A stretch of DNA of 64,000 bases from Rugalucina vietnamica. Its lineage: Eukaryota; Mollusca; Bivalvia; Lucinida; Lucinidae. The position numbers and the translations under genes are program-made. Positions 23,248 to 64,000 of this stretch are shown one piece after another. The stretch spans positions 42,515,431 through 42,579,430 of the forward strand of contig OZ024882.1 of assembly GCA_964017185.1 (NCBI GenBank), written 5' to 3'. How positions within the stretch are numbered: the stretch's first letter is position 1; every line of letters begins with the position of its first letter. Under the pieces are notes generated by a model. The model was not told the DNA's origin and ran no database searches. It was given only the letters and a program-made list of their open reading frames with translations.

Positions 23248-24009
23248 TTTGCAAATTTCTTTGCAGTAACATGGTTTCTGGTGTGTAATTGAGTGTACGT
23301 AAAGTGCCGGTCCCACTGAATCATAAGCAATCGTACGATTGTCTAATCATCAGTTTCTTGATAAGTCTACGTATGCAGAATTTGTAAAATGTTTTCCAAC
23401 GTGTTTCTGCTTTCAAGAGCGTCGATGATGATGCAAATTTTGGGGGCAAGAAATGTAAAATTGCCTTTTTTTTTTTTTTTTTTTTTTTTTGCAAAAATGA
23501 TTGTCTATGAAAATTTTCAATAAGGTTGGTTTTAATGTGCCCGTGATCTGCATCATGCCAGTGTCAGAAAAACAACAAAACATTTTAAAATTTCGATATT
23601 TTTTACAAAATTTTGAAAAAATTGCATTTTCAGAAAATTAATCTGTGGTTTTGACAATTTCCTTTAGAAAGCGAAAATACAACAAACATGCATTCTAAGG
23701 TTATAACAGATAAGCACATGCCCCACTTGACTGGTTTGGCCAGTTTTATACAAAAAAGTCGAGTCCGTTTGCTGTACTTTCGGTTTATACGCAATGAATT
23801 TTATTTTTAATTTTCCATGTACTTTTTTGTGCCATTTCAATAAATAGCGTCGAGAAACGTGTCTAAAACAATTAATTTATAGGAAAAAGCAAATTGTCCC
23901 AGCAAAGCAGCATAGAGATGGTGCTTTATTTGGTCCATATAGATTTTGCTCTTGAAACACTACCAAATAATGCACCAACTTAACTTTGCTTTAGAAAGCA
24001 GAAAGGGTT
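23248..24009. other. Intergenic with poly-T tract
   Basis: A T run of about 25 bp at 23466-23491; otherwise nothing recognised. Confidence 0.4.
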
Positions 24010-24283
24010 TTCTGAAAAATCAGAAATTTATTATCGGTTTAGATTCATTTTCTAACCAAAGTTTAATATATTTGGCCCCATTTGGATAATACTAGTCTTT
24101 GTGTTGACTACCCTGCTGAAAGGAAAGGTGCTGCAAAATTACAATTTAGTACTCTTTTGCTCCATGTTTACAAATCTAAATGTTCACTGATGAGGCTTGA
24201 GTAGCCGAAATTGCGGTTTGACCCAATCTTTTTCTCATTAATATACTCACTGCTTCTAAAGGATCTCAGTTTTATTTTTATTT
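24010..24283 (+). mobile_element. Hammerhead-ribozyme repeat (retrozyme-like), copy 1
   Basis: A 274-bp repeat homologous along its length to 43815-44079. Shared landmarks are CAGAAATTTATTATCGGTT, TTAATATATTTGGCCCCATTT, TGACTACCCTG/CGACTACCCTG, the ribozyme core and the 3' end TAAAGGATCT.AGTTTTA. It has no coding capacity. A non-coding element of this size with a type I hammerhead fits the retrozyme class, which is thought to be moved by other retroelements. The assignment to that class is inference. Confidence 0.75.
24181..24224 (+). ncRNA. Minimal type I hammerhead ribozyme, copy 1
   Basis: The core CTGATGA (24187-24193) is followed by stem II, GGCT (24194-24197) pairing with AGCC (24203-24206) around the loop TGAGT, then GAAA (24207-24210). 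A15.1 (24210) can pair with U16.1 (24217) to close a very short stem III. H17 is T24218, so the predicted cleavage is after 24218. Stem I (TTCA before the core, TGA after the cleavage site) has three pairs, a mismatch, then one more, so this copy may be weak. Very short stem III is a known trait of Penelope-associated hammerheads. Confidence 0.8.
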
Positions 24284-25440
24284 GCTGGTTCCAAACAAAT
24301 TATTGTATGGAACAATTAGTTCATTTTCAAATCAGTACAATGGCTAAAAAACAGAATAAAGAATGATAGTTGTAAAATCAAAATTAAAAATTCCTGCTTA
24401 CAAATCCGAAGTTTAGAAAACGGAATTGACCTACATGTATGTTTATGAAACACACAGAAACAGTCATGCAGGACAAGTGTTTATCTGCCATATCCCTAGT
24501 ATACATGGGCCTTTGTAATCTGTGCTGTTTAAGACCACAGGTTAATCTTGCAAAAAAGCCATTTTTTAAAAAAATGTAAAAACTACAAATTATCTAAAAT
24601 TCAAAATGGTTCGTTGTATTTCTGACACGGACATTATACGTAACACATGACATTGTACAATCAAAACTTAATTAAACTTTCAATGGCAACCAATTTTTCC
24701 AAAAATGTGCAATTTTATACTTTTAAGCACCCATTTTTGCATTAGCATCAACACTCGAGTTTGCTGCAAAGTCAAAGATTTGATATTGTAATTGACCAAA
24801 AAATGTTAGAAATAAAAAAAATGTTGATATTAAAAAACAACAAGAACAAGGTCTTGCAAGATTTTCGATTTTTAGTATATTGAGCCTTGGATCAATATGT
24901 TTCGATGGATTAAGACTCCAATACATTTGTCTATATTTTTTGCTTATTCAAGGTCCAGTCAAAATGCAGGAAATGCGGTCGGAAAAAATCAATATTGGCA
25001 GAAATTAGTGGAAATAAGCCCTGAAAATACTTTAAACGTTATGTTTTAAATACAGAAATTAAGATTTCTATTTATATGTTAACCCTGAAAATTAGTGCAG
25101 AATGTGCACAATTAAATTAGCTTTTCAACAGTGTAAATTTTATTGACATAATATTTCAACTTTAAGAGAAGTATTGCGCACCAAAATTGTACTGTTGGAT
25201 GGTACTTTTTTCCATTTTTACTGTATTTCATATCATCATTAAAAGGGATAAACTTTATTGAATTAAAATAATTGTATGATAATGTTATTCTACAGTCTTT
25301 TCTCTTTTACACTATCTAACAATTGTACCATTAATTTGCTTTATTATGCACCAATTAACCATGTTTTCAAAACATTTTACTATGTTATTGAATAGGCAAA
25401 TCTATTAGGGATTATTGGTTTTATTGTTTACCTGGAATAC
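24284..25440. other. Intergenic, nothing recognised
   Basis: Only short chance frames; strongly AT-rich. Confidence 0.35.
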
Positions 25441-43155: not shown

Positions 43156-43388
43156 GTCACCGGTCCAAAACTATGGAATGCTTTGCCACTAGAAATTAGA
43201 AAATCAACAAGTCTTGCCACTTTCAAAACGTCTGTAAATAAATACTATTTAAATAAACAACTTAACAAGACATAAAACACACTGCATGCATAGCCAGCCA
43301 TAAAGCACATACTTACAATTGTTGGAACAGTGGTGTGCTGTCTGGACATTGGTAACCGCCACACTACCACTGTCCCGATTGGCAAATA
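43156..43388 (+). pseudogene. LINE C-terminus and 3' UTR
   Basis: Encodes VTGPKLWNALPLEIRKSTSL then ATFKTSVNKYYLNKQLNKT and a stop. This is the usual C-terminal block of LINE ORF2 (GPxLWNxLPxxIRxxxSLxxFK). It follows directly on the endonuclease remnant with the whole RT deleted. Confidence 0.8.
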
Positions 43389-43587
43389 CTAGAAATTAGA
43401 ACATCAACAAGTCTAAAGCTATTCAAAACGCCGCGAAGAATTATAAAGTAAGCAAATTAACGAGGCATAAAATATGTTGCACGCACATCCAACCATAAAA
43501 GCACCTACTTGTACCTGTGGGGCAGTGGTGTGCTGTCTGGACATTGGTTTCCGCCACATTACCGCTGTCCCGACTGGCAAATACACG
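43189..43587 (+). repeat. Tandem duplication of the LINE 3' end, period about 200 bp
   Basis: Unit 1 (43189-43388) and unit 2 (43389-43587) both run from CTAGAAATTAGAA through the ATCAACAAGTCT block to GTGGTGTGCTGTCTGGACATTGGT and CCGCCACA.TACC.CTGTCCCGA. Unit 2 is diverged in the coding part, so the duplication is old or came in from another copy. Confidence 0.85.
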
Positions 43588-43699
43588 TAGAATGAATTGT
43601 ATATCAAACCTTTATTCTCTTCATGTTCTCAAACTTGACTGGATCTGGCTACATTATTAGTATAGTGTATTGTCCCAATTTGGATATTGTATCTGTTAT

Positions 43700-43770
43700 T
43701 GTGTTGTGCCGTGTGCTGGTGTTGTGCCGTGTGGCGGCCCTAAAAAGTCTCCCCGTACATCATCCATAGT
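43700..43770 (+). repeat. GTGTTGTGCCGTGTGGCGGCCC repeat, possible LINE 3' terminus
   Basis: GTGTTGTGCCGTGTG occurs twice in a row. The segment TGTGCCGTGTGGCGGCCCTAAAA with GTCTCCCC recurs at 60976-61010, where it also follows a retroelement tail. Confidence 0.5.
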
Positions 43771-43814
43771 GCAGGTTATATTTTCTTTTTGGTCATTTGA
43801 GATCAGCGTAGATA

Positions 43815-44079
43815 TTCTGAGAACTCAGAAATTTATTATCGGTTAAGATTCATTTTCTAGCCAATGTTTAATATATTTGGCCCCATTTAGATAACACTAG
43901 TCTTTGTATCGACTACCCTGTTGAAAGTTGCAAAATTTCAGTAATTCTCTTTGGCTCCATGTTGCCAAATCTAAAGGGTCACTGACGAGACTTCAATAGT
44001 CGAAACCGCGGTATGGCCCATCACCTTTCTCATTAATGTGTACACTGCTCTTAAAGGATCTGAGTTTTAATTTTTATTT
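43815..44079 (+). mobile_element. Hammerhead-ribozyme repeat (retrozyme-like), copy 2
   Basis: Homologous to 24010-24283 over about 265 bp, with scattered substitutions and small indels. It lies downstream of the LINE 3' end. It contains the better preserved ribozyme. Confidence 0.78.
43976..44019 (+). ncRNA. Minimal type I hammerhead ribozyme, copy 2
   Basis: Core CTGACGA (43982-43988; only the variable position 7 differs from CTGATGA). Stem II is GACT (43989-43992) with AGTC (43998-44001) and loop TCAAT; GAAA is at 44002-44005. Stem III is A44005-T44012 and C44006-G44011 with loop CGCG. The cleavage triplet is GTA, with the predicted cut after 44013. Stem I is six pairs: GGGTCA (43976-43981) with TGGCCC (44014-44019), one G-T wobble. 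Compared with copy 1, the second pair of stem II changes from G-C to A-T on both sides. Confidence 0.88.
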
Positions 44080-44934
44080 TTCATGTTTTGTATTGTTGCG
44101 TGCGGTTGCTGGATACAGACTAGCTGGCTGAGTGATTTATTGGAGGTTTTCGGCAGTTTGCGATGAGTCTTTCAGCTCTCTTTATTTGTATCTTTCATGC
44201 AACGGGACAGCTTTTTATGCTTGAGGACACCCAGTACCTTTCCGTATCTCAATTAGCAAGTAAACATAAATTTAGCACCTTTCAATCGATCAGGAGACAA
44301 TAAATATAATGGTTATTGTGAAAGAAAGTTTTAGTTAATAGATAATTTCACTGGTCATACATTTATAAAGATGATAAAATTTAAAAATTTTGTATGGATC
44401 AAAAGGTCGCATGTTCTCTCTATGACTCACATATAACCTCAAATCTGTTATCATTAATATACATGTGTGTCCTTAAGTTGTATTTTCATTTTAATTCTGT
44501 GCCTCATTTAAAAGCAATAAGTGTACATGTTTTAATAGGTCTCACATACATCACATTTTGTACATATGTATATGTATATAACTATGTAAATATATGTTTT
44601 ACTCTTATTAAGAGGACCATGTCTGAGATTAGTTTATGTAGTAAATATGTCATCCTCTTTAAATTAAGACATTATTATTATTATATTATTATTATTATTA
44701 TTATTATCATTATTGCATTTTACTTTTTGATAAGCTTTTACTTGCCATGGCCCCAGCAGTCGGTTGACACGCTGTCTTGGAGCTGTTAAGACTTTTGAGT
44801 CTAGAATTAGAATGGACGATTCTAGGGTCTCGCACTTCATGGTTCAATCAGTGCAGAAAACACCGAAACTTGACGGAATTAGCAGAAGTACCTGATTTTA
44901 AGTAGCAATTTACAGTTGTAAAAAGAGAAATTTT
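44080..44934. other. Intergenic with TTA microsatellite
   Basis: An ATT/TTA run at 44670-44715. The 131-codon frame 44394-44789 runs through this microsatellite and is not a credible gene. Confidence 0.5.
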
Positions 44935-52601: not shown

Positions 52602-54495
52602 AAAAAGGTACAAGTAGGCAAAGATCAGGAAAAGGCGCAATCAGAAAGAAATTCCCACTCCAAAAACCGAGGTGGGAAAAAAACAAACTAACAATCAGGC
52701 ACTTATAAAATGAAACATATCGTAAGCCGAATGAGCAGCTATTTTCCCAATAGGTGGCCATTCAGTTACCTTAACTTAATTAAAAATATAAAAACATACA
52801 TAAGGCGCCAACAGCACAAAACATTTTAAACACCAAGACATAAAACAAAAAGAACCACCACAGAAGTATCGCCTTGGAACGATCAGTAACACAAAGTTAC
52901 TGGCGGGCTTAAACCGGTTTTACAGGATCCTAACCTCACCCTAAGCTTCTGCAGTGGTTCATAACATTTAGTAACTTCTTCGGTCCTCGTGGTGAATCTC
53001 TAACTAGTCAATGAATCGTCAAGAACAAACAAATAAATCATGATAAACATCCTAATGAATCAAAAACAAGGACTCACAGATAGAGTAAGCTGCCCGACGA
53101 TGGAGATCCCTGGGCGCCGAATAACCCACTAACTCCGGAGCAAAAGAAAAACACCAGTTGGACCCCGGTGGGCCAAGCAACAGACAAGAAGCTCCGGCCC
53201 CAACCAACTAAAATGAATAGCTTTAAGTCGGGGCCATCATAGAGTCTGACGCCCGACCCACCGGCGTGCAATTAAAGAAGGCAGCATAGTTATCAATCAT
53301 GATTGGGTTAAACACTAAGCATGCAGACTGTCGCATAACATTCAAGTTATAACCTATACGTCTGTAACGTTTTATGATTTTTCTGAACTGAAAAGAAAAA
53401 TCATTAATTCCTATAAGTTTCTTAAATTTGTAAACTAAGTCACCATAAAATTCAGGTTCCGAAAGGCCCTCACTTTAAAGCGTCTTTAACCCAACATTAT
53501 ATTTGGAAATCAATTCATAGTGTCTACGATAAAATTTAGAAAAGGTTTTTCGAAGTTTATGATACCGATAGCCGTGTTGGAGAAGTTTTGCCGTTAAACA
53601 TTTATTTCGAGCGTTGAAGTCTGTAACATGATTGCAGACTCTAGCAAACCTAATAAGTTGCGAAATGTAAACACCATAAGAAGCACGACGAGGAACGTCA
53701 CCATCCAAAAAAGGAAAATTTACTATATCAAAATCAAAGTCATCGCGATTATTATAAATTTTAGAAGAAACAAATCCATTTGCAACAGAAAGATGTAGAT
53801 CTAAAAAGGGGGCTTCGGTATCTGAGATATTGGCTTTGTTCAACTGAAGTTCAGGTGGATAAATTTGATTGACCATACCTTCAAAATAAGGGTTGTCAAT
53901 GTTCAAAAGGTCATCGAGGTACCTAGATGTGGAATTAAAAGCCTCGATAACATCAGATTGATTATCATGGTTAAGAGAATCCATGAAATCTCTTTCGTAG
54001 CAGTATAAAAATAAATCAGCTACGAGAGGTGCGCAATTTGTACCCATCGGAATTCCAACAATTTGTCTGTCTAACTTGGTCCCAAATCTAATATAAATAT
54101 TATCAAGGAGATAGGACAAGGCGTCGCACACATTCTGACATGACCAAAGTGTATACCGACTTTGGTCAGAGGAAGTGAAAAAAGCCTTTCTGTCATTACA
54201 TGCCAAATAAAGTGAACCATAGTTTTTAATGCCCTTTTGAAGGTCCACTCTATCAAATCCAGAAGTTTTTTTTTTATTAGATTATGTGGTAATGTTGTAT
54301 ACAGAGTAGAAAAATCATACGTGGACAAGCTTGTCGCACGGAACCTTCTACACTTCAATTTACTGAGCACCTCACCAGAATTTTTTATTGACCAAAACAA
54401 ATTTTTATTTGAAGTTTCATACACTGTCTCACAGTATCTTATAACATGAGATTTGATAGCAGTAAGACAGGAAGTTGATAATTTAGAAAAGCATT
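52602..54495 (-). mobile_element. Penelope-like retroelement, RT to 3' terminus
   Basis: The longest RT-bearing copy in the window. Read on the minus strand it starts within the region before RT motif A (truncated near 54495), passes through the RT, a basic C-terminal region, NCTPVG then RASDSMM and a stop, about 650 bp of non-coding DNA and the family terminus CTACTTGTACC. The RT coding part is broken by one frameshift and at least one stop, so this copy is not autonomous. Confidence 0.88.
53475..54424 (-). pseudogene. Penelope-like reverse transcriptase, frameshifted
   Basis: Two overlapping frames make up one RT. The upstream frame (54071-54424) contains YDFSTLYTTLPHNL, the motif A block with its catalytic Asp. 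The downstream frame (53475-54248, 257 codons) contains GIPMGTNCAPLVADLFLY (motif B, residues 65-82) and SRYLDDLL (motif C, Asp-Asp at residues 112-113). It then has a basic region (KLRKTFSKFYRRHYEL). A frameshift lies near 54235. A stop after KTL arises from one T-to-A change relative to the copy at 1795-2250, where the frame stays open. The catalytic residues are intact in the sequence. I assign the Penelope-like class from motif style and from the linked GIY-YIG element at 61-64 kb. Confidence 0.87.
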
Positions 54496-56072: not shown

Positions 56073-57116
56073 GAAAAATAAGTACACATAGGCATTGGTC
56101 AGGAAATGGCGCAATCAGAAAGAAATTCCTACTCCATAAACCGAGGGGTGGGAAGAAACCAAACTGACACTTAAGTACTTATACCATGAAAACATGTCGT
56201 AAGCCGAGTGAGAAGCTATTCCCCAATAGGCGGCCACTCAGTTACCCGAACTGAACTAAAAATATGAAAACGTACATAAGGCTCTAACAGCACAAAATAT
56301 CGACTCCAAAACACAAAACAATTAGAACCACAACAGAAGTATCGCCTTGGAACGATCAGTAGTATAAAACTACTGGGGGCTTAAACCGGTTTTACAGGCG
56401 CCTAACCTCACCCTCATCTTCTGCTGTGGGTCACAACATTTAGTTAGTTGTTCGGTCCTCGTGGTGAATCTCTAACTAGTCAATGAATCATCAAGGACAA
56501 ACGAATAATCATGATAACCACCTTGATGAATCAAAAACGAAGACTCAACAGACTCAGTAAGCTGCCCGACGATGGAAATCCCTGGATGCCGAATAACTTA
56601 CTGAAGACCGGAGCAAAAGAAAAAAACACCAGTTGAACCCCGGTGGGCCAAGCAACAGACAAGAAGCCCCGGCCCCAACCTACTAAATTGAATAGCTTTG
56701 AGTCGCGGCCATCATAGAGTCTGACAACCGACCCACCGGCGTGCAATTAAAGAAGGCAGCAAAGTTATCAACCATGATTGGGTTACAAACTAAGCACGCA
56801 GACTGTCGCATAACATTCAAGTTATAACCTATACGTCTGTAACGAGTTATTATTTTGCTGAACTGAAAAGAAAAAATCATTCTTTCCTTTAAGCTTTTTA
56901 AATTTGTATACCAACTCACCATAGAATTCTGGTTCCGAAAGGCCCTTACGTAAATGGGTCTTTAGCCCAACATTATATTTGGAAATCAATTAATAGTGTC
57001 TTCGATAAAATATAGAAAATGTTTTTCGAAGTTTATGATACCGATAGCCCTGTTGGAGAAGTTTTGCCGTTAAACATTTATTTCGCGCGTTGAAGTCCGC
57101 TACATGATTGCAGACT
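56073..57116 (-). mobile_element. Penelope-like element, C-terminal part and 3' end (reverse)
   Basis: Contains the family terminus (AAGTACACATAGGC), non-coding tail, the NCTPVG region, and RT C-terminal coding back to ADFNARNKCLTAKLLQQGYR. It ends abruptly at GATTGCAGACT, where a LINE ORF1 begins. Several substitutions and indels relative to 52602-54495, including stops. Confidence 0.82.
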
Positions 57117-57830: not shown

Positions 57831-58047
57831 ACTTGATTTAGTCCAAGTGCAAATTTTGCGTATAGTTTAATTTTGCATATACGCACATGTGGACATGAAC
57901 AGATTTGCATACATGAGTAAATCTGGTCATGACAATGGGATTTTAGATTGGCAAAAGTAGCTGACACATGAAAGAGTATAAAGTTTCTGCGTTGGCTGTC
58001 GATAACATTATAAATGAAATGGTATATATTAATGTATAAGTAATGAA

Positions 58048-58360
58048 AAGGTACAAGTAGGCAATGATCAGGAAATGGCGATATCAGAAAGAAATTCCCA
58101 CTCCATAAACAAAGGGGTGGGAAAAAACTAAAATGACACTTAGGTACTTATACCAAGAAAACATATCGTAAGCCGAGTGAGCAGCCATTCCCTAATAGGC
58201 GGCCGGCCACTCATAAGGCTCAAACAGCACTAAAATTTGACTCCAAAACACAAAACAATCAAAACCACAACAGAAGTATCACATTGGAACGATCAGTTAT
58301 ACAAAATCACTGGGGGGCTTAAACCGGTTTCACAGGTGCCTAACCACATCCTGACTATCT
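58048..58360 (-). mobile_element. Penelope-like element, 3' end only (reverse)
   Basis: GGTACAAGTAGGCAATGATCAGG, AAGCCGAGTGAGCAGCC, GAACGATCAGTTATACAAAATCAC and GGCTTAAACCGGTTTCACAGG follow the family order. A 40-bp segment near the TAACTGAGT part is deleted. Confidence 0.8.
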
Positions 58361-60958: not shown

Positions 60959-61201
60959 ATATAAGAGTTATTGTGGTTGTGCCGTGTGGCGGCCCTAAAA
61001 GTCTCCCTATACATCCATTTAATGTTCTTATTTTCCAATCATCAGGGATTGCTTGCAATCAGTTTGTATTTTCCTATCTCTAACTACCACAACTCTTCGA
61101 TACCGTACTGAAGGTCATAAGTTGACCGTCACTCGTATCTCGTTGTATAAGCGATTCTAACGTTTCTATCCATGGACTTGTATTAGACATGGTCCTGAGA
61201 T

Positions 61202-62165: not shown

Positions 62166-62656
62166 TTAAAAGGTACAAGTAGGCAATGATCAGGAAAAGG
62201 CGCAATCAGAAAAAAGATTCCCACTCCAAAAACCGAGGTGGGAAAACACCAAACTAACAATAAGGTAGCTATACCATTAAAACATTTCGTAAGCTGAATG
62301 AGCAGCTATTTTCCCAATAGATGGCCAGCCAACAGCACAAAAATTTCAAACACCAAGACATAAAATAATAAGAAACACCACAGAAGTATCGCCTTGGAAC
62401 GATCAGTAATATAAAATTACTGGCGGGATTAAACCGGTTTTACAGGATCCTAACCTCACCCTCAGCTTCTGCAGTGGTTCTTAACATTCAGTTAGTTGTT
62501 TGGTCCTCGTAGTGAATCTCTAACAAGTCAATGAATTCATCATGGACAAACAAATAAATTATGATAAATTCCATGATGAATCAAAAACGAAGACTCACAG
62601 AATGAGTAAGCTGCCCGACGATGGAGATCCCTGGGCGCCCAATAACTTACTAACTT
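62166..62656 (-). mobile_element. Nested inverted Penelope-like 3' fragment
   Basis: AGGTACAAGTAGGCAATGATC at the left is the reverse family terminus. It passes through GCCTTGGAACGATCAGTAATA and GGCTTAAACC-like words and ends with GAGTAAGCTGCCCGACGATGG then CTGGGCGCCC. It splits the linker of the surrounding element. TTAAA on both sides (62158-62164 region and 62656-62660) may be a short target duplication. Confidence 0.8.
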
Positions 62657-62659
62657 AAA

Positions 62660-64000
62660 CTAAGGATTCACGGTCGACATCCAATGCTGTCTTATCTTAG
62701 TTCTCTACCTATTGCTGTATTACGTTCCTTGGACACAATGGCTAATAGATTTTACGATAGAAATCATCAATTGTATGACGCTGCACTGTTAACAGCATAC
62801 TCTTCGTCCATTTATAGAATTTTTATTAAAATTCCTTTCATTAACAAAGGAGTTGAATTGACTTTATTGATTTATTAAGTATATTCCAGGATAATCAGTG
62901 ATACAGTCTATACCTACGTACTTTCAAAGTTCAGAACTTCTTATTATTTGTTACAAATATAATAAATCAATCAAAATACTATTTTAATTTCAATAAACTT
63001 GTTTCTTATCTTGATATCCATGCTAATACTCCTAGGTCTTGTGACTGTAAAGAATCAATATATGTTTATCAACCAGCCGGACATATAGTTACTGGAATTT
63101 AAAAAATTATTTCGGATTCTAGAATTCGCAAAATTGTTTCTAAAGGTCCGAAATATAGATTCCCTTCCTACATTAATTTCGACAAATGTAGAGAGGAGAT
63201 TGCATCTGCATTAAATGATTTCGGTTATCGATGGTGTAAACGAGAGGGTGTTGAGGATAATGCTTTTAAAGAATGGAAAAGAAGCATCTTCACTATCGTG
63301 GATAAACGTATAAAGTTGTATTCACAAATACTAATTTTTTACCTCCTAAACCCAAATCGTCATTTAAGCATTTGAAGCAGGGTATCAAAGAATTTCATAG
63401 AAAGTAAGTCTTGGTGTCGGCAGACAAATCCGCAAACAATGCTGTTGTCGTCTGTAGGCTTGGTGGTATGGCCCATCCCCTTTGTCATTAATGTTTTTAC
63501 TGCTCTTAAAGGATCTCGGTTTTAATTTTTATTCACTACGTTAACATCTTCAAACAGGAGCTTGATGGTACCAGGGCTTATCTGGAGACAGATACTGATG
63601 AAATGTCTGTAGTTAATGCTCACTTAAACGATTTACCGTTAAGTTTTCTGTTTGTGCCAATGAAGGCCAAGACAAACTTCCTAAATTCTAGCTCTTGTAC
63701 TACCACTGAAATTTCTAAAGTATTAACTTCCTGTCTTACTGCTATCAAATCTCGTGTTATAAGGTACTGTGAGACAGTGTATGAAACCTCAAATAAAAAT
63801 TGTTTTTTGTCAATAAAAACTTCTGGCGAGGTGCTCAGTAAATTGAGGTGTAGAGGGTTCCGTGCGACGAGCTTGTCCACATGATTTTTCTACTCTGTAT
63901 ACAATGTTACCACATAATCTAATTAAAGATAAACTTCTGGATTTGATAGAGTGGACCTTCAAAATGACATTAAAAATCTATGGTTCATTTTATTTTTTAT
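62660..64000 (+). pseudogene. Penelope-like RT N-terminal half, cut by the window edge
   Basis: Pieces in shifting frames: RFYDRNHQLYDAALLTAYS, IPFINKGVELT, CDCKDS.. with a CxC pair, AGHIVTG, KGPKYRFPSYINFDKCREEI, ASALNDFGYRWCKREGVED, KPKSSFKHLKQGIKEFHRK, VSADKSANNAVVVCRL, then (after an insertion at 63462-63533) HYVNIFKQELDGTRAYLETD, TSCLTAIKSRVIRYCETVYE, FRATSLST and DFSTLYTMLPHNL (motif A). The 93-codon frame 63603-63884 is one such piece. The region overlaps the 5' truncated minus copy at 54.4 kb, confirming one family. Confidence 0.85.
63462..63533 (+). mobile_element. Hammerhead-ribozyme repeat, 72-bp 3' fragment
   Basis: GGTGGTATGGCCCATC then CATTAATGTTTTTACTGCTC and TAAAGGATCTCGGTTTTAAT match the 3' part of 43815-44079, from stem III onward. 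It interrupts the codons VVVCRL | HYVNIF of the Penelope-like ORF without other loss, so its ends are precise. Only the 3' side of the ribozyme (GTA then TGGCCC) is included; the CTGANGA core is absent. Confidence 0.8.

Follow-up and report, generated by a model that had tools for sequence, protein, structure and literature searches.

Non-long terminal repeat (non-LTR) retrozymes have been described in the mussel Mytilus galloprovincialis (Cervera and de la Pena 2020, PMC7229834) as repeats of ~350-390 bp with low G+C and no open reading frame (ORF), each bearing a type I hammerhead ribozyme and following one another unit after unit, and the same account depicts the mussel ribozymes as devoid of most of the nucleotides for tertiary contacts between the stem I loop and loop II. 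In a 64,000-nucleotide stretch of the genome of the lucinid bivalve Rugalucina vietnamica (assembly GCA_964017185.1, contig OZ024882.1, positions 42,515,431 to 42,579,430 of the forward strand; hereafter the window), the locus that we call copy 2 is probably a single, dispersed copy of an animal retrozyme of this non-LTR kind, namely a non-coding element of ~370 nt whose transcript would contain a type I hammerhead. Judged from sequence, this copy is a member of a large tandem-repeat family; the type of element is already known, and this member of it is new. Its relatives show the unit-after-unit order of the mussel repeats, whereas the copies in the window are single, differ in their 5' ends and have a short, palindromic stem III, and the likeness to the mussel retrozyme is one of described features.

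Partial resemblance is also seen to the satellite hammerheads of newts and axolotl, which, as summarized in PMC7229834 and PMC6155905, combine a weak stem III with a palindromic loop (HHR_Amex1), are held to act as dimers and occur in repeats of ~330-350 bp; hammerheads with a weak stem III are reported in these two sources to cut better as dimers. For copy 2, dimeric action is a prediction. The minimal hammerheads of Penelope-like elements (PMC11167929; RAGATH-1, RF03152) share with our element, as they are described there, a weak stem III, a 3' insertion end shortly past the cut and a predicted upstream hairpin (in copy 2), but no linked ORF was found here, and the scores against RF03152 lie below gathering.

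Copies of the element and its tandem relatives

The following copies and parts of the element were located in the window:

24010 to 24283, plus strand: copy 1, 274 nt; compared with copy 2, it lacks ~100 nt at the start of the unit or retains them in a form that can no longer be recognised
43700 to 44079, plus strand: copy 2, a putative near-complete retrozyme unit of ~365-385 nt, its 5' boundary placed at ~43696-43723 from unit length and from the predicted protein P0104 (see below)
43815 to 44079, plus strand: segment of copy 2 that aligns with copy 1 (81% over 275 columns, with indels of 8 nt and 2 nt)
44014 to 44079, plus strand: 3' tail of copy 2, 66 nt past the predicted cut, with a T-rich end common to three copies
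63462 to 63533, plus strand: copy 3, 72 nt, beginning at most 7 nt ahead of the cut position and with the same 3' end
60973 to 61016, plus strand: fragment like the 5' part of copy 2 (~43718-43762), by nhmmer (E 1.9e-5) and by an alignment that none of 200 shuffles equalled

All three copies share their 3' end, a T-rich tail 65-66 nt past the predicted cut, and differ in their 5' ends; copy 2 is probably a nearly full unit, while 5' sequence is missing from copy 3 and probably from copy 1. The aligned lengths are 274 nt in copy 1 and 265 nt in copy 2; nhmmer extends copy 1 to 23990, and a hint of homology back to 23985 is weak, 13 of 200 shuffles being equally good. An 18-nt direct duplication is present at 43694-43729, in the region where the 5' boundary of copy 2 is placed. 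Animal non-LTR retrozymes are small repeats (~170-400 nt) with G+C below 50% and no ORF, and our element agrees with them in all these respects: its G+C is 0.33-0.39 and, because indels of 8 and 2 nt separate copies 1 and 2, it is on this evidence non-coding. Target site duplications, which exceed 4 bp in these elements when present, were sought at copies 1-3, where the longest shared word had 6 letters in each case and none was convincing. A second partial unit to the right of copy 2 was discarded, its DNA alignment being matched by 130 of 200 shuffles.

Copy 3 interrupts a reading frame like that of a reverse transcriptase (RT), which has other defects too. The predicted protein P0122 reads the insertion site uninterrupted (VVVCRL-HYVN), and compared with it the 72 nt of copy 3 amount to 24 extra residues, with no neighbouring residue duplicated or lost, so that the insertion looks blunt at the protein level. 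Of the seven letters of copy 3 that precede the cut position, five match copy 2. That copy 3 starts exactly at the cleavage site was not upheld, since the insertion begins 7 nt before the cut, and its interpretation as the 5' leader of an RT gene was rejected because it interrupts the frame.

The relatives of the element are known from predicted proteins, not from DNA. P0104, which is homologous to the RT-like frame at 53478-54281, reads in its C-terminal part a hammerhead, a tail and then the 5' part of the next unit, and it matches copy 2 weakly at 43715-43789, 43524-43880 and 44011-44163 (E 1.5e-5 to 3e-4), in the order that head-to-tail units would give. A composite query made of this C-terminal part and of copies 1 and 2 matched 588 of 763 candidate proteins at E <= 10, and the best 120 matches (E 6.8e-35 or lower) were examined. 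In 103 of these 120 relatives the tail runs straight into the next unit's 5' segment, a proportion (although not the existence of the junction) that is biased by a query containing the junction counted; at least two tails occur in 19, and 12 of the 22 tail spacings measure 119-128 residues, i.e. 357-384 nt. We read the matching proteins as gene calls through tandem retrozyme arrays, which would imply a unit ~100 nt longer at its 5' end than the part common to copies 1 and 2, and which calls for caution, as such arrays seem to be present in protein databases as predicted proteins.

Segments at most 7 mismatches from GHWWGFISRNYVVWP numbered 130 among 360 proteins, 70 of them being exact. The two W of GHWWGFISRNYVVWP align with TGA TGA in copy 1 and TGA CGA in copy 2, and a further W of the relatives (FWEIRN) falls on TGA in both copies; we infer that the ORF caller took TGA as W and that the hammerhead core is intact in the relatives. 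Two frames are independent of this reading of W, one with VTDEALLAET or close variants of it in 7 proteins (ACN GAY GAR) and the other with ends such as GSLMRLY in 16 proteins (YTN ATG MGN), and as translated they are jointly compatible with CTGATGA. The core is altered in some relatives, as two of the seven VTDEALLAET-type proteins carry I in place of T, a replacement that alters core position 3. In the commonest frame (125 segments), pairing is possible in at least 118 at every tested position, inner dimer pairs included, with 0 to 7 segments per position that cannot pair, but this check is weak, as it relies on segments selected for their resemblance to the consensus and includes several ambiguous codon positions. 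When segments were anchored on the 5' segment, WW was kept in 75 of 97. Conservation of the hammerhead relative to its surroundings in the translated family was left unused as anchor-dependent: it is 0.952 when anchored on the hammerhead itself and, with ungapped anchoring on the 5' segment, 0.819, below the tail (0.874) and the anchor (0.945).

The hammerhead of copy 2 and its predicted folding

The ribozyme motifs and the features next to them are as follows:

43950 to 43969, plus strand: hairpin (TTTGGC...GCCAAA) upstream of stem I in copy 2, from fold prediction; the same prediction gives none in copy 1
43976 to 44019, plus strand: type I hammerhead of copy 2, from structural descriptor and sequence; predicted cut after 44013
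44005 to 44012, plus strand: stem III octamer of copy 2, ACCGCGGT, a perfect palindrome, from sequence and cofold prediction
24181 to 24224, plus strand: copy 1 hammerhead, with cleavage predicted after 24218 and 2 mismatches in stem I; its stem III, ATTGCGGT, is self-complementary if G-U pairs are counted

The motif of copy 2 has the type I pattern, with CUGANGA, GAAA and UH, three stems and an opening at stem I. Its core letters are CTGACGA...GAAA; stem I has six pairs, one of them T-G, stem II is GACT/AGTC (GGCT/AGCC in copy 1), stem III has two pairs and a CGCG loop, the cleavage site is GUA, and all 12 stem pairs are intact. The original prediction, made from the letters of the window, had given the motif these coordinates, stems I and III, loop and site and a cut after 44013, and the sequence bears out all of it, together with the double change from GGCT/AGCC to GACT/AGTC that it had described in stem II. 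Its statement that the core differs between the copies only at position 7 holds for the conserved core letters; position 17, however, differs as well (GUA in copy 2, GUU in copy 1).

The CGCG loop of stem III falls within the self-complementary 8-mer ACCGCGGT, a feature absent from the original prediction, and the stem III of the relatives fits ACTACGTAGT, likewise palindromic, with variants. For two 44-mers of copy 2 the minimum free energy (MFE) structure is exactly the double hammerhead (-35.1 kcal/mol), with another fold as the MFE of the monomer, and the double hammerhead is the MFE also of two 76-mers and of two 95-mers. In copy 1 44-mers the stem III dimer forms and stem I does not, and at 76 nt the stem III dimer is lost too. 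In view of the palindromic stem III, of the cofolds at 44-95 nt and of the published dimers with weak stem III, dimer cutting is likely in our model, though unproven.

Several points weigh against reading copy 2 as a retrozyme unit cut by dimers, in addition to the biased junction count given above. All copies in the window are single and none is in tandem; the remaining 10 of the 22 tail spacings in the best 120 relatives are shorter, at 14-74 residues; the relatives are possibly spliced gene models, which could apply in single cases; and if their W stood for TGG and not TGA, the core would carry mutations at positions 6 and 9. For longer RNAs, of 170 and 265 nt, the dimer has an MFE structure other than the double hammerhead, and in 131 of 500 shuffled 44-mers self-dimerisation brings at least the same gain in energy. 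Published retrozyme circles, moreover, are described as highly self-paired, whereas the whole-unit folds obtained here are only weakly better than shuffles (z -1.93 and -1.24).

The paired change in stem II and the competing explanations

From two copies with structure kept and sequence changed, the original prediction had argued for selection on the fold. Structure is indeed kept in copy 2, with all of its pairs, but only partly in copy 1, where only 4 of 6 stem I positions are paired (there are two T-C mismatches) and the C-G pair of stem III is T-G. Between the two copies 11 of 44 hammerhead sites differ (25%), as against 34 of 221 in the remaining element (15%). Random placement of the six substitutions among the 24 paired sites yielded one or more pairs kept through changes on both sides in 26% of trials, and left 10 or more of the 12 pairs intact in 15%. 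A single paired change does not by itself prove selection on the fold, and this randomisation led us to reject single covariation as evidence of it; with the faster divergence of the hammerhead and the damaged stem I of copy 1, the argument from two copies finds no support. The wider family, as far as its translated segments go, is in keeping with a maintained fold, though the check is biased and does not measure fold maintenance.

Divergence between copies 1 and 2 is higher in the 3' part (25 of 95 sites) than in the 5' part (20 of 170; Fisher p 0.0035). By alignment column, 9 of 100 sites differ in columns 1-100 and 25 of 95 in columns 180-276, which comprise hammerhead and tail, a contrast that may reflect subfamilies with different 3' modules. 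When the tails of the three copies are compared, the odd one is copy 1 at 12 sites and copies 2 and 3 at 3 sites each, the other columns being 46 identical in all three, 1 all different and 1 gap. At the second stem II pair, all seven proteins readable in the informative frame, which may not be independent, have G-C like copy 1 (GCN or GTN, then GCN at this pair), once the loose matches P0133, P0164 and P0230, which match within RT coding sequence, had been dropped before counting. G-C in copy 1 and in these seven relatives makes it probable that A-T in copy 2 is the derived state.

That the motif resembles a hammerhead by chance is extremely improbable. The Rfam scores would favour such a view, as neither copy reaches gathering: Hammerhead_1 gives copy 2 15.6 bits (gathering 34) and does not list copy 1, Hammerhead_3 gives copy 1 18.0 bits (gathering 48.5), and RAGATH-1 gives copies 2 and 1 15.6 and 14.5 bits (gathering 56.3). 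A gathering score, however, is a recognition threshold and not a defining feature of type I hammerheads. A structural descriptor, designed after both copies had been seen, was run on the window and on 1500 first-order Markov sequences of 128 kb each; at its stringent setting (stem I with at least 5 of 6 pairs) it finds only the copy 2 locus on both strands of the window and nothing in the 1500 simulations, and when relaxed (4 of 6 pairs) it finds only copies 1 and 2 in the window and a single match in the simulations (0.0007 expected). The motif, in fact, recurs across the repeat family. A pattern search for DNA relatives returned 0, 0, 0 and 44 loci on viral contigs and 1 on genome contigs; none of these 45 core-pattern loci, of which several are near-identical and not all independent, has both at least 3 consecutive pairs in stem I and at least 4 in stem II, and the best blastn match of the element among them has E 0.09. 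A chance motif was rejected on the simulations and on this stem test, and by these measures 43976-44019 is a genuine hammerhead. Neutral decay, with a dead ribozyme and a coincidental change in stem II, is a much more serious proposal for copy 2, one that is compatible with membership in a retrozyme family and to which we give only slightly less than an even chance. The hammerhead diverges faster than the remaining element, stem I is broken in copy 1, which by energy does not have a hammerhead fold, and a kept pair is expected by chance about as often as the randomisation indicates; in copy 2, on the other hand, the core, 12 of 12 pairs and the perfectly palindromic octamer are retained.

The copies could also be solo pieces (pseudo-LTR, hammerhead and tail) of an autonomous Penelope-like element whose RT starts internally shortly past the hammerhead, which we regard as unlikely. 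A 3' end 65-66 nt past the cut, the extension of copies 1 and 2 well across the cut and the presence of RT-like reading frames in the window would all agree with this, as would the minimal hammerheads, which are described as typical of Penelope-like elements (PMC7761336). In the best 120 relatives, however, the repeats are spaced 357-384 nt, and where the tail continues into the following 5' segment, as in the 103 proteins counted above, no coding region lies between. No linked ORF with RT and GIY-YIG endonuclease was found at copies 1 and 2, the RT-like frames lying elsewhere in the window, in a search whose Pfam part covered 20 translated stretches (some of them overlapping) and gave nothing above family cut-off; copy 3 is itself an insertion in an RT-like frame.

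Insertion and the surroundings of the copies

For the re-entry of animal retrozymes into the genome, the help of long interspersed nuclear elements (LINEs) or Penelope-like elements has been proposed (PMC7229834; for Penelope-like elements also PMC7761336). In the retrozyme cycle as we picture it, tandem or neighbouring copies would be transcribed, hammerheads, probably dimerised via the palindromic stem III, would cut the RNA into units, and these would be ligated into circles; an RT from another element would then start at the T-rich tail ~66 nt past the cut and copy toward the 5' side, leaving insertions that agree in their 3' end and vary in their 5' ends. Cutting, dimer action, circles and helper are all predicted steps of this cycle. 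Three copies with a common 3' end and differing 5' ends, including one within a coding sequence of known uninterrupted form, make the helper proposal testable.

In an Anolis Penelope-like element, reverse transcription is described as starting internally ~85-92 nt past the cut, which is longer than here (PMC11167929). Since the common 3' end of our copies shortly past the cut recalls this internal start, animal retrozymes might, by analogy, become integrated as single units through target-primed reverse transcription, with a fixed start in the T-rich tail ~66 nt past the cut and with RNA intact or religated across it, as in Penelope-like elements, a suggestion that we make tentatively and with more doubt than belief. 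If true, it would explain the common 3' end, the varied 5' ends and a near-full copy that stops near the unit start, and would implicate a Penelope-like helper, which to date is no more than a proposal.

An RT-like frame (IPMGTNCAPLVADLFL...SRYLDDLL), which we take to be RT partly from its motifs, is followed on its 3' side by a selenocysteine insertion sequence (SECIS) element (Rfam RF00031, 39 bits, gathering 35), the whole lying at 53181-54281 on the minus strand. P0001, a relative of this frame, matches Pfam RVT_1 below threshold (20.7 of 29.6 bits), and P0060, a match to the frame at 53478-54281, comes from a metagenome-assembled genome of Candidatus Thiodiazotropha, which are clam symbionts; this match and the likeness of the RT-like proteins would suit a molluscan host. 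Within the Naiad group of Penelope-like elements, some members have selenocysteine codons. The end of the frame and the SECIS are spanned by a repeat of ~1 kb, present at 52602-53640 and 56076-57116 in the same orientation with 87% identity, with further similar stretches at 58043-58352 and 62168-62655; a SECIS reaches the Rfam gathering score in the first copy only (52602-53640). ARAGORN, run with the bacterial code, found no tRNA genes in the window. Just upstream of copy 2, at 43188-43584, lies a direct repeat of ~200 nt in two copies 78% alike, and copy 1 is flanked by the 63-nt arms of an inverted repeat (23543-23605 and 24584-24646, 76% complementary); it may lie within another mobile element.
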